This document shows positions 9,824-60,519 of a stretch of 64,000 bases of DNA, piece by piece. Every line of letters begins with the position of its first letter. Positions within the stretch are counted from its first letter, which is position 1. The notes under the pieces are model-generated. The model did not search any database. It saw nothing but the letters and a program-made list of their open reading frames with translations, and was not told the origin of the DNA. This stretch comes from Candidatus Caldatribacterium sp. (GTDB lineage: Bacteria > Atribacterota > Atribacteria > Atribacterales > Caldatribacteriaceae), in NCBI GenBank assembly GCA_028275365.1, contig JAPWUU010000001.1, positions 38,208 to 102,207 on the forward strand. The letters are read 5' to 3'. The translations under genes and the position numbers were made by a program.

Positions 9824-10921
9824 ATGTACCAATCTTTTGAGGTGAGGAATTTTCGGTGTTTCCGCGAATTAAAGCTCGATGAACTGGCCCAAATCAACCT
9901 TGTCGTGGGGGCTAACAACGTTGGCAAAACGGCATTGCTGGAGGCTCTGTTTATCCACTGTGGGACGTACCGTCCTGAGCTGACGTTCAAGGTTAATGCT
10001 TTCCGTGGGGTGGAGCAAGTAAAGGTTGAACTGGGCCGATGGGCTGAAACACCGTGGGATGGCCTTTTCCACCAGTTTGATGTTTCTCAGGCTATCACCT
10101 TGGAAGGAAAGGACACGGTCGCAGGTTGGCGGCTGGTTCGGTTGAGAGTTTTGCGCGATGTATCGGAACTGGCAGAGATAATGGCATCCTTGCACACTGT
10201 GGGAGTAACCCCTGTCCCTTACGGGCACCTGAGGGTTTCCGTGGCCACGGAGATTGCTCAGGTGCTCGAACTGGAGTACACGATGGACGGCAGAGGCGGA
10301 AAGTTTTACGCAGTCATAGACCCGAACGGGGTTCGTTTTGCGCCGATTCCACCTGCTCCTCCTTTTCCGGCTTTCTTTCAGACCTCCCGTGGGCGTGTTT
10401 CTTTTAGGGATGAGGCCGAAATGTTTGGAAATCTGCAAGTTCGGGGTGAGCAGGACGAGGTCCTGAAGGTTCTTCGGCTCATCGAGCCGAGACTCCGCCG
10501 TCTTGAAATGGTGGTTGTTGCCGGAGAACCGATCCTGCATGGAGATATAGGTGGCAACCGCATGATTCCTTTACCCTTTCTCGGGGAAGGTATGGTCCGT
10601 CTGGCGAGTCTGGTTTTGCATATCGGCAATGCACCCGATGGTGTCGTGCTTGTGGACGAAATTGAGAACGGACTTCACCATACCGTTTTGACCTCGGTGT
10701 GGCAGGCTGTTGGGGAAGCCGCGAGAAAGTTCAACACACAGATTTTCGCCACGACTCATAGCCTGGAGTGTGTTATTGCTGCTCACAAAGTGTTCTCACA
10801 GACCCAATCCTGTGAGTTCCTCTTACACCGTCTAGAACGGGTGAACGACGAGATTAGGGCCATCACTTACGATCGGGAAACTTTAAAAGCAGCTATTGAG
10901 GCGGATCTCGAGGTGCGGTAA
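9824..10921 (+). CDS. AAA-type (OLD/RecF-like) ATPase
   Basis: N-terminal FEVRNFRCFRELKL, Walker A GANNVGKTAL, Walker B GVVLVDEIENGLHH, FATTHSLE. Confidence 0.9.
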   Translation: MYQSFEVRNFRCFRELKLDELAQINLVVGANNVGKTALLEALFIHCGTYRPELTFKVNAFRGVEQVKVELGRWAETPWDGLFHQFDVSQAITLEGKDTVAGWRLVRLRVLRDVSELAEIMASLHTVGVTPVPYGHLRVSVATEIAQVLELEYTMDGRGGKFYAVIDPNGVRFAPIPPAPPFPAFFQTSRGRVSFRDEAEMFGNLQVRGEQDEVLKVLRLIEPRLRRLEMVVVAGEPILHGDIGGNRMIPLPFLGEGMVRLASLVLHIGNAPDGVVLVDEIENGLHHTVLTSVWQAVGEAARKFNTQIFATTHSLECVIAAHKVFSQTQSCEFLLHRLERVNDEIRAITYDRETLKAAIEADLEVR

Positions 10922-11530
10922 ATGCCCATACAGATTACGTCCCCCTGTGTTCTGGTGGTCGAAGGGGAAGAAGACAAGCGGTTTTTTGAGGCGTTGCTTC
11001 GGTATTTGCAGCTGGAAGCACAGGTGATACCGGTTGGTGGCAAGACCCAACTGAGGTATGGCCTGAAAGCTCTCGTTCAAAGCCCTCGTTTTTATACGGT
11101 AGCTCGCTTAGGAGTGTCAAGAGATGCGGATAGTGCCCCGAGGGCTGCGTTTCAAAGTGTGTGCGATGCCCTGAGGACCCTGGGTTTGCCGTTTCCTGCT
11201 GATCCGTTACATGTTGTGGAAGGCTGTCCTCAGGTTGGCGTCTTGATTTTGCCGGGTCCAGACACGCCGGGTACCCTGGAAGACCTTTGCCTTGAGGCTG
11301 TTGCTCAGGATCCGGCTATGGACTGCGTGGAGAGGTACTTTCAGTGCTTACGACAACAAGCCATTCCTGTGGCCGATAGCAAAATCTCAAAAGCAAAAGT
11401 TCATGCGTTCCTGGCGTCAAAGCCGGAACCGGGGAGACGACTGGGCGAAGCAGCACAGGCCGGTTACTGGCCGTTCGATAACAAGGCCTTTGAACAGGTG
11501 AAGGACTTCCTTAAGCGTTTGTTCGGGTGA
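10922..11530 (+). CDS. DUF3226-like / TOPRIM-like protein
   Basis: VLVVEGEEDKRFFEALL N-terminus and GVSRDADSAPRAAF (TOPRIM-like acidic motifs); starts directly after the ATPase stop codon. Confidence 0.75.
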   Translation: MPIQITSPCVLVVEGEEDKRFFEALLRYLQLEAQVIPVGGKTQLRYGLKALVQSPRFYTVARLGVSRDADSAPRAAFQSVCDALRTLGLPFPADPLHVVEGCPQVGVLILPGPDTPGTLEDLCLEAVAQDPAMDCVERYFQCLRQQAIPVADSKISKAKVHAFLASKPEPGRRLGEAAQAGYWPFDNKAFEQVKDFLKRLFG

Positions 11531-57658: not shown

Positions 57659-58246
57659 ATGGCCTTCACGAGGATTGTTCCCGAGATCGGTCCACGGGGG
57701 AAGGGCGTTACCCTGTGGGGAGTACTTTTGGTTCTCTCCCTGCTGCTTTTTGTGGGATGCACCCTCTCGGTGAGGGTTCGGGTAGGGGAGACCGCCAGTG
57801 TGCGTTTGGGCAAAGGGATCGAACTCGAAGGAGGGGATTTTTCCCTCTTCTTCCGAGACGTCCTCGAGGATTCGCGCTGCCCCCAAGGAGTGGAGTGCTT
57901 TTGGGAAGGTAGGGTTGTTGCTCTGTTCGACGTTCAGGGGAATGCAACGGAGGTTGAGCTTGTTGAGTCCAAACTTCCCAAAGCATTGCCTTTTGGGTCA
58001 TACTGTGTCGTGTTTCTGGGCGTTTTTCCTCCACGGACTTCTTTAACCCTTCCGGCAAAGGATGAGTATCGAGTTGTTCTGAGAATAGAACAATGCACAC
58101 TGGAGAGCCCAGGACTGAAAGTTCCGGGGATTCCTTCCGGTTTGCCGGCTAACCTTAGCTCAAAGGCGCCTTTCCTCTACACAAATTTTCCCAAAAATTT
58201 TTTTCTCCCCCCCTTGACAAGAAAAAGGAGAGGGTGTATCCTATAA
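57659..58246 (+). CDS. Putative lipoprotein/secreted protein with SRCPxxVxCxWxG motif; 3' end runs into the downstream promoter
   Basis: LLVLSLLLFVGC lipobox-like; DSRCPQGVECFWEGRVVALFDV. Confidence 0.55.
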   Translation: MAFTRIVPEIGPRGKGVTLWGVLLVLSLLLFVGCTLSVRVRVGETASVRLGKGIELEGGDFSLFFRDVLEDSRCPQGVECFWEGRVVALFDVQGNATEVELVESKLPKALPFGSYCVVFLGVFPPRTSLTLPAKDEYRVVLRIEQCTLESPGLKVPGIPSGLPANLSSKAPFLYTNFPKNFFLPPLTRKRRGCIL

Positions 58247-58247
58247 T
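58214..58247 (+). promoter_or_regulatory. Promoter of candidate ncRNA
   Basis: TTGACA (58214-58219), 17-nt spacer, TATCCT (58237-58242); alternative -10 TATAAT at 58242-58247. Confidence 0.6.
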
Positions 58248-58249
58248 CG

Positions 58250-58390
58250 CCATGGGTTCCGAGGAATCGGAAGGTGGCTTGGGACCCTCCAGAGTCCCCC
58301 CGAAAGAGGGGATGAGGAGGAAGCCCGTAAAGAGGCGCAATGCCTCCTGAAAGCACCGGAAGGTTCGTTGGAGCCCATGGTTCTTTTTTA
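58250..58390 (+). ncRNA. Candidate structured small RNA, class not recognised
   Basis: CCATGGGTTCC pairs with GGAGCCCATGG (11 bp), inner helices GAATC/GGTTC and GGTG(g)CTT/AAGCACC, symmetric GGAA/GGAA loop, then TTCTTTTTT. Confidence 0.6.
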
Positions 58391-58504
58391 CCCCTGTTTT
58401 CCGCAGGTTCCGGACAGGAACCTCTGGAGTTTCCTCCCAGGTGTCACCTGTGGAGTTCTCAACAGGAGAAGCCCCGAGTTCACCCATCTTCTCCGTGCCG
58501 GAGG

Positions 58505-58523
58505 CCCGGCTTTTAAGCCTGGG
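58505..58523 (+). other. Candidate left-end subterminal hairpin of the TnpB element
   Basis: CCCGGCTTTTAAGCCTGGG, similar in sequence to the right-end hairpin at 59694-59714. Confidence 0.4.
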
Positions 58524-58574
58524 GAGGAAGGCGTGGTTGACACCTTTTTCAAAAGCGGTACGTAACATGAAACT

Positions 58575-59636
58575 GTGAAGCTTGTAACGAAAACAGCAAG
58601 GTGCAAACTCCAGGTTGATACCGAACAAGCCGAAACCTTGCGAGAGACCCTGCGGCGGTTTGCTGACGCCTGCAATGACATCCTCTGCATCGCTCAAGAA
58701 AACCGCACCACCAACAAGGTCAAGCTCCAGCACCTCTGCTACCGCACCATCAAAGAAAAGTACAATCTCCAGGCTAACCTCATCATCCGCGCTATCGCCC
58801 GTGTAGCCGAAGCGGCCAGGAAAAAGCGAAAGCCATCGAAACCGAAGAAGTTCAAACCCCCAAGCATGAGCCTCGACCAGCGCACTTTCTCCTTCAACGA
58901 AAAGTGCTGGGAAGTCTCCATCTCCACGGTGGCGGGCAGGCTCAAGCTTCCCCTGGCCATCGGCAACTTCCAGCGCGAGCTCCTGATAGGGCAGAAACCC
59001 ACTTCTGCCACCCTCTGTTACAACAGGCGAACGAAAGCGTTCTCCATCAACATCGTCGTGAACCGGGAAGTGCCCCTCCCGCCACAAAACGGTAACGTCA
59101 TTGGCGTTGACCGTGGTATCTACAACCTTGCCACCACCTCCAATGGTTTGAAATTCTCCGGGCGGCAAGCGATGCATGTCCGCAAACGCTACGCCCGGTT
59201 GCGACAGGCGCTCCAAGCCAAGGGCACGAAGGGGGCGAAACGCCTCTTGCAACGGCTTTCGGGGAAGGAGCGCCGCTTTATGGCCGACCTCAACCACAGG
59301 ATCGCCAAAGCCATTGTCAACTCCTGTACCCCTGGCGATGTGATTGTCATAGAAGACCTGCGGTACATTTGGGAGCGAATTCGTGTCGCTAAAGAGCAGT
59401 GCCTTCTTCGGCACTCCTGGGCTTTCGGGCAACTGGGCAGGTTCATCGAGTACAAGGCTACTGAACGTGGTATTGCTGTGGTTTATGTTGACCCCCACCA
59501 TACCAGCCAGCGCTGCCCGAAGTGCAGGTTTGTTTCCAAAGGCAACCGCAATGGTCATATCTTCCGTTGTGCCTCCTGTGGTTTTCGTGGCCATGCAGAT
59601 CTTGTGGCTGCAACCAATATCCGTCAGGCGTATTGA
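58575..59636 (+). mobile_element. tnpB: TnpB (IS605 OrfB-type RNA-guided nuclease/transposase-associated protein)
   Basis: RuvC motifs GVDRGIYNLA, VIVIEDL, HADLVAATNI with D/E/D present; zinc finger CPKCRFVSKGNRNGHIFRCASCG; GTG start. Confidence 0.93.
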
Positions 59637-59714
59637 GACGCGCTGGCGGATGGGCCTCTGTCAGTAGGCCCTGAAGCGGCCTCAAGCTGCAAGCCCCTGG
59701 CTTTAGCTATGGGG
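59637..59714 (+). ncRNA. Predicted 3' part of omegaRNA/reRNA and right end of TnpB element
   Basis: Hairpins GGGCCT/AGGCCC (59652-59671), GCGGC/GCTGC (59676-59690) and CCCCtGGC/GCTatGGGG (59694-59714); AAGCCCCTGGCTTTAGCTATGGGG is a typical IS605-group right end. Confidence 0.65.
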
Positions 59715-60519
59715 TAACTGACTGCAGTGCGGTGAAATACTCAAAAGCCTTCTGGGGAATACGGTACCGGGGAAGGTAGAAGAGATCGTGCTCGGCGTGG
59801 AACCACTGGATTTCCTTCGGAGCGCGGATTGCTCTGTAGAGCTCGAAAGTACATTCCCCCGGAACGATGGTATCCCGGGTAGCGTTGAAAAGAGAAACCG
59901 GGGTGTCGGTGAGCGCTTCTGCTGCGTTCACGGGGTCGAGGTCCTTCCAGGCTATGGCGACGTCGCGAACCGGTATGCCCCGCTTCCGGAAGTCATAGCG
60001 GATGTTTACGATAGAGTCGAGCATGCTCTCCTCAAAAAGAATTTCAATATTCCCTCCGCCGACGACAAGGGCAATGCCCCTGAATTTCCCATAAAGCGCA
60101 GCGACGACGGTGCCCACAAGTGCCCCAAGGCTCACACCAAGAAAGAAGATTTCTCTCGGGCGAATACTTTCGTGCGTTTCGAGGAAGCGGAGGGCAAAAA
60201 GGGCGTGCTCGAAGGTCCGGAGGAAGGCCTGGTAGTCATCCTCAAGGTCTGTCGAGAGGATGTCTCTGCCGTTGACCCTCCGTTCCCCGTGGTACTCCAT
60301 GTCAATGGCCAGAGCCGCAAAGCCCCTTCGTGCTGCCTCGAGGGCAAAGAAGGTAAGGTTTTCTTTCGACCCCCGGTAGTGGTGGAGGAAGAAGACGGCA
60401 GGATACGGTGGAGGAGCGTTCCGGGGCGTGAGGAAGAGGGCAGGGAGGCCGGGTTGCAGAAAGAAACGGGAGATAGTGTACTCCCTGTGTTCTCTGAAAG
60501 GTGCAAGGTCCGCTTCCAT
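59707..60519 (-). CDS. Alpha/beta hydrolase (dienelactone hydrolase-like)
   Basis: FFLHHYRGSKENLTFFALEAARRGFAALAIDMEYHGER; nucleophile elbow LGVSLGAL. Confidence 0.82.
   Translation of the reverse strand: MEADLAPFREHREYTISRFFLQPGLPALFLTPRNAPPPYPAVFFLHHYRGSKENLTFFALEAARRGFAALAIDMEYHGERRVNGRDILSTDLEDDYQAFLRTFEHALFALRFLETHESIRPREIFFLGVSLGALVGTVVAALYGKFRGIALVVGGGNIEILFEESMLDSIVNIRYDFRKRGIPVRDVAIAWKDLDPVNAAEALTDTPVSLFNATRDTIVPGECTFELYRAIRAPKEIQWFHAEHDLFYLPRYRIPQKAFEYFTALQSVTP

Follow-up and report, generated by a model that had tools for sequence, protein, structure and literature searches.

A multi-copy family of structured RNAs sharing a mismatched closing stem in the bacterial order Atribacterales

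The locus studied here lies on the forward strand of a 64,000-nt stretch of the draft genome of Candidatus Caldatribacterium sp., hereafter called the window, and comprises a predicted 135-nt RNA at positions 58249–58383, all 135 positions of which were matched by the three covariance models (R1, R2 and R3) described below. Immediately upstream, a −35 element (TTGACA, 58214–58219) and a −10 element (TATCCT, 58237–58242) separated by a 17-nt spacer were found where the initial annotation had placed them, and an A/T-rich stretch just 5′ of the −35 element (58191–58213) is UP-element-like by resemblance only. The TATAAT that had been offered as an alternative −10 element was discarded, because it would need a 22-nt spacer and homologues carry TATTCT or TATTAT at the position of TATCCT. 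A 195-aa, lipoprotein-like open reading frame (57659–58246) reads through this promoter; its orthologues end earlier or lose similarity at the RNA promoter, so that conserved coding probably does not extend to its C-terminal end. Likewise, an ATG at 58252 within the RNA is ACG in most relatives and its frame is interrupted in two orthologues, which indicates that the RNA is not translated. Downstream, a tnpB gene (58575–59636) starts 190 nt after the RNA, inside an insertion of about 1.3 kb (roughly 58439–59720; tnpB-only, IS605 OrfB/Cas12f-like), which lies downstream of the RNA terminator at a distance of about 55 bp. Relatives lack this element but have the RNA, and the window DNA aligns with theirs up to about 58419–58438 and then again from 59721; since the flanks are thus continuous across the site, the TnpB element was identified as a later insertion.

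The RNA is enclosed by a closing stem, whose 5′ strand (58249–58268) starts with GCCATGGGTTCCGA from 58249, in agreement with the transcript start proposed near 58249–58251, and whose 3′ strand (58362–58381) includes the proposed partner GGAGCCCATGG at 58370–58380. A U-run (58381–58389, TTCTTTTTT from 58381) follows and together with the stem makes up a predicted intrinsic terminator. The long closing helix of the initial annotation was therefore upheld, but its extent was corrected to 58249–58268/58362–58381 with a single G·G mismatch between 58263 and 58367; the GAATC/GGTTC pairing (58264–58268/58362–58366) was recovered as described, whereas the GGAA/GGAA internal loop (58269–58272/58358–58361), present in the window, proved not to be conserved in other subtypes. 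The interior (58273–58357) is branched, with a GGTG/CACC helix, a long arm and a side hairpin; within it, a hairpin with the adjoining CUGAAA (GAGGCgcaauGCCUC plus CUGAAA, 58330–58352) is nearly invariant among the five orthologues. The minimum free energy (MFE) of 58249–58383 was −72.8 kcal/mol, compared with −49.2 ± 3.9 in a set of 200 dinucleotide-shuffled sequences (z = −6.0), none of which reached so low a value, and the MFE fold showed three-way branching and contained the nested helices claimed initially.

A DNA search of relatives yielded four orthologues in the genus Ca. Caldatribacterium, 76–95% identical, together with short matches confined to the RNA ends, both within this genus and in further families of its order. 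These end-only matches turned out to be complete RNAs that share the closing stem and have longer interiors. R1, a covariance model built on seven long forms, identified 88 copies in all 25 genomes of the order Atribacterales (Atribacterota), which consists of deep-subsurface and hot-spring bacteria, whereas 359 genomes from elsewhere, 25 of them from other parts of Atribacterota, yielded no copy; in the wider set of 384 genomes under stricter filters, the 25 positive ones were all Atribacterales. Copy numbers ranged from one to at least 11 per genome. In the single-contig 3.1-Mb genome G017, R1 matched ten places and R2 added at least one, while the draft genome that contains the window, which is about 90% complete, had one copy with each of R1, R2 and R3. 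These three models, separately built from different subtypes, recovered each other's members. A few weak matches were obtained with R2 or R3 only (G017:C1:1814171–1814307, G015:C165:3125–3278, G020:C272:13669–13822 and G009:C38:1577–1656), which indicates that the family includes more divergent members than were counted. The multi-copy state, the several subtypes and the tandem forms described below go beyond what the single window sequence had revealed.

Nearly every full copy has a closing stem of 19 bp, in which 14 bp are followed by the G·G mismatch and then by 5 bp. Of the 67 complete copies, 64 have G·G at the mismatch and 56 have a G·U pair before it. Among 46 distinct stems, standard pairs occupied 97.5% of the closing-stem cells, and two-sided (compensatory) changes were found in 97 cells versus 19.5 ± 7.2 in shuffled controls, with 14 of the 19 stem pairs having such changes; sliding the stems by 1–3 columns left only 4–13 two-sided cells. 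When the whole long form was considered, 23 pairs showed two-sided changes (0/500 shuffles as high), and compensatory changes occurred in all interior helices except a 3-bp one; covariation was also present in the type III hairpins. The homologues called for by the initial annotation thus exist, and the changes seen in the stem are compensatory rather than non-compensatory. On the strength of this covariation, the existence of the family is near-certain, and we hold it almost beyond doubt to be a real non-coding RNA family.

Taken singly, the two stem strands come close to being palindromes (UUCYGAGGAA and UUCGUUGGAA). The corresponding segments of the window lie at 58257–58266 and 58364–58373, which makes the stem quasi-two-fold symmetric around the G·G mismatch. 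Local hairpins formed by each strand separately were 90% pairable, but had only 4 two-sided cells versus 3.1 in shuffled controls, and this lack of covariation indicates that selection has acted on the long-range stem instead. The quasi-symmetry might allow dimers, or reflect a symmetric binding partner such as a protein.

No part other than the closing stem is shared by all subtypes, and the interiors vary from about 89 to 196 nt. Subtypes of about 184 nt, about 155 nt (one genus) and about 132 nt (type III) were distinguished, besides several divergent ones; the long form carries two branched arms. The window subtype, 131–136 nt in length and confined to Ca. Caldatribacterium, has a nearly invariant segment, GAGGC-gcaau/ggaau-GCCUC-CUGAAA.

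Promoter signals close to consensus are present in most copies. Of 68 copies, 60 have a −35/−10 pair that reaches a score of 9/12 or more at a constant position, versus about 4.5% of shuffled upstream sequences; as in the window, most have a 17-nt spacer, and most lie 6–7 nt before the first stem base, and A/T-rich runs occur 5′ of the −35 element in many copies. In almost every stand-alone copy the stem is followed directly by a U-run. Four loci are tandem head-to-tail pairs with the two units 2–5 nt apart (L066:4001–4232, L070:4001–4324, L086:4001–4234 and L109:4001–4239), the downstream unit always being type III. In these pairs the upstream member has no U-run and the downstream member no promoter, so that each pair, sharing one promoter and one terminator, is apparently made as a single transcript. 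A T-box leader adjoins one of the tandem loci on the opposite strand (L066:4339–4589). Some copies look degenerate: four stem pairs are broken in one (L057) and two others (L073 and L060) have no good promoter, which suggests that not every copy need be active.

Gene neighbourhoods of orthologous copies are kept across species, and some of the neighbouring genes form syntenic blocks; among the recurrent neighbours of family copies, no common partner gene was found. Type III copies face convergent genes only 2–9 nt away. Paralogues with unrelated flanks share only a segment from about 80–135 nt upstream through about 5–25 nt past the RNA. The comparison covered three syntenic sites in two species, with a third species added for one site: same-genome paralogues differed at 0–4 columns and syntenic orthologues at 7–11. 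That paralogues are closer to each other than syntenic orthologues are points to concerted evolution, the pattern that dosage-type RNA genes would be predicted to show. At one locus, two copies of identical sequence lie 7 kb from each other (L050:4001–4183 and 10915–11097), and their neighbouring genes are duplicated as well, a local duplication.

To what is the RNA related? At gathering thresholds, Rfam gave no match in the 64-kb window, and at the RNA itself, searched for the window, the homologous loci and the divergent subtypes, nothing appeared at E ≤ 0.5; permissive matches around the RNA, for example to TCV_H5, were at chance level. No confident match to a known family, which would remove novelty, was thus found, and the literature searched contained no paper on an Atribacterota ncRNA. 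The new RNA class that the initial annotation had considered possible is borne out by the lack of an Rfam match, by homologues across one order and by covariation against controls, and the family is, as far as Rfam 15 and the literature searched show, previously undescribed. SRP RNA was rejected, in line with the earlier reading, since it was found elsewhere in the genome (G000:C73:26142–26241) and not at this locus. Bacterial ncRNAs that are abundant or ornate and whose function is not settled, namely raiA, OLE, ROOL and GOLLD, are comparable in kind, but their covariance models gave no match to the Atribacterales RNA at E ≤ 0.5, and the latter is much smaller than OLE, ROOL and GOLLD and is multi-copy with subtype diversity. 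There is a likeness in plan, one of resemblance only, to the Y RNAs and bacterial YrlA with Ro60 (Rsr). In Y RNAs the 5′ end pairs with the 3′ end in an imperfect but conserved stem on which a protein docks, and the interior modules are variable. However, no Ro60/TROVE protein was found in 50 Atribacterota genomes, with a positive control recovered in Deinobacterium; moreover, there was no Rfam Y-RNA match, no tRNA-like module was noted, and the Atribacterales family has up to at least 11 dispersed copies per genome.

The window RNA is very probably a stable working RNA, although we infer its transcription, ends and abundance from sequence. Tentatively, with a probability that we would put somewhat short of even, we read the family as a protein scaffold built on the shared stem and acting in trans. 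From the conserved sigma-70-type promoter signals onward, the RNA would be made constitutively and in quantity, and its own closing stem would form ahead of the U-run and so set the transcript end. The stem would then protect the RNA, which would act in trans, and would serve as a putative dock for one conserved partner, probably a protein that reads the G·G mismatch and the flanking G·U/A-U pairs, while the interiors would be interchangeable effector modules. Such a plan would be like that of the Y RNAs, a shared protein-binding stem with a variable interior, but with a different partner.

Rather less probable, though the most serious competitor to the scaffold reading, is that the copies are sibling trans-acting sRNAs, of which the interior loops pair with mRNAs and the stem is only a stabiliser or terminator. 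Like LhrC and CsrB/C, the copies are several related stand-alone genes with their own promoter and terminator. Sibling sRNAs are documented to occur in several copies whose interiors differ (PMC4211561); the Atribacterales copies differ in the same way, their variable interiors would fit base pairing, and the hairpin loop of the window subtype is nearly invariant. Yet the conserved part here is a double-stranded closing stem, whose fixed mismatch and G·U pair are unneeded in a plain stabilising or terminator stem; the interiors are largely paired and covarying, leaving few long single-stranded seeds, and the copies are kept alike by concerted evolution. The same G·U and G·G features, an RNA-level asymmetry that would be pointless in DNA repeats, weigh against a MITE-like element having terminal inverted repeats, a variable interior and a transposase supplied in trans. 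Several dispersed copies do share about 270–340 bp between unrelated flanks and many copies are found at the ends of contigs, a placement typical of repeats, but promoter and U-run are kept in most copies, syntenic places are held across species in an order where 25/25 genomes are positive, and no viral-contig, phage or plasmid match was found, so that we regard this origin as improbable.

A divergent 6S RNA trapping RNA polymerase, which the initial annotation had put forward alongside a new class, is less probable again and was rejected. In length, strong promoter, long closing stem with closed ends and order-wide spread the RNA does resemble 6S RNA, which is a rod with a large central bubble mimicking an open promoter. 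Against this, a bona fide 6S RNA, matched by RF00013 above cut-off, lies separately in the window's genome (G000:C126:21266–21423) and in most of the order, while RF00013 gave no match at E ≤ 10 in window positions 58100–58500; the RNA itself is multibranched, three-way in the window and two-armed in the long form, with no central bubble. Hardly any weight can be given to a cis-acting leader (riboswitch or attenuator) or to a guide RNA of the neighbouring TnpB element, despite the terminator-like stem at the RNA end and the proximity of tnpB in the window. As the initial annotation had judged of common riboswitches, a leader does not fit, because no constant gene lies downstream in sense orientation and the neighbours are mixed and often convergent. 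The omega/reRNA of TnpB lies inside the IS605/IS607 element and overlaps the tnpB 3′ end; the window RNA is outside and upstream of the inserted element, and the empty site in relatives, which have the RNA alone, refutes the guide.

An extension of the scaffold reading, which we consider unlikely, is that the family is an essential, dosage-type RNP RNA defining Atribacterales, in which one order-specific protein would bind the quasi-symmetric G·G stem of all subtypes, so that RNAs with different interiors and the tandem two-unit versions would be assembled into a shared particle, possibly tied to the group's unusual cell architecture. Atribacter laminatus has an intracytoplasmic membrane around the nucleoid (PMC7736352). 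Two Atribacterales are in pure culture, A. laminatus RT761 (PMC7736352) and Thermatribacter velox B11 (PMC11227167), and public RNA-seq of the former exists; the conserved G·G stem would be an exact bait for finding the putative partner. Taken as an order-wide, multi-copy RNA with concerted evolution and strong promoter signals, the family suggests that Atribacterales may possess a hitherto overlooked stable RNA comparable in scale to 6S or SRP RNA.
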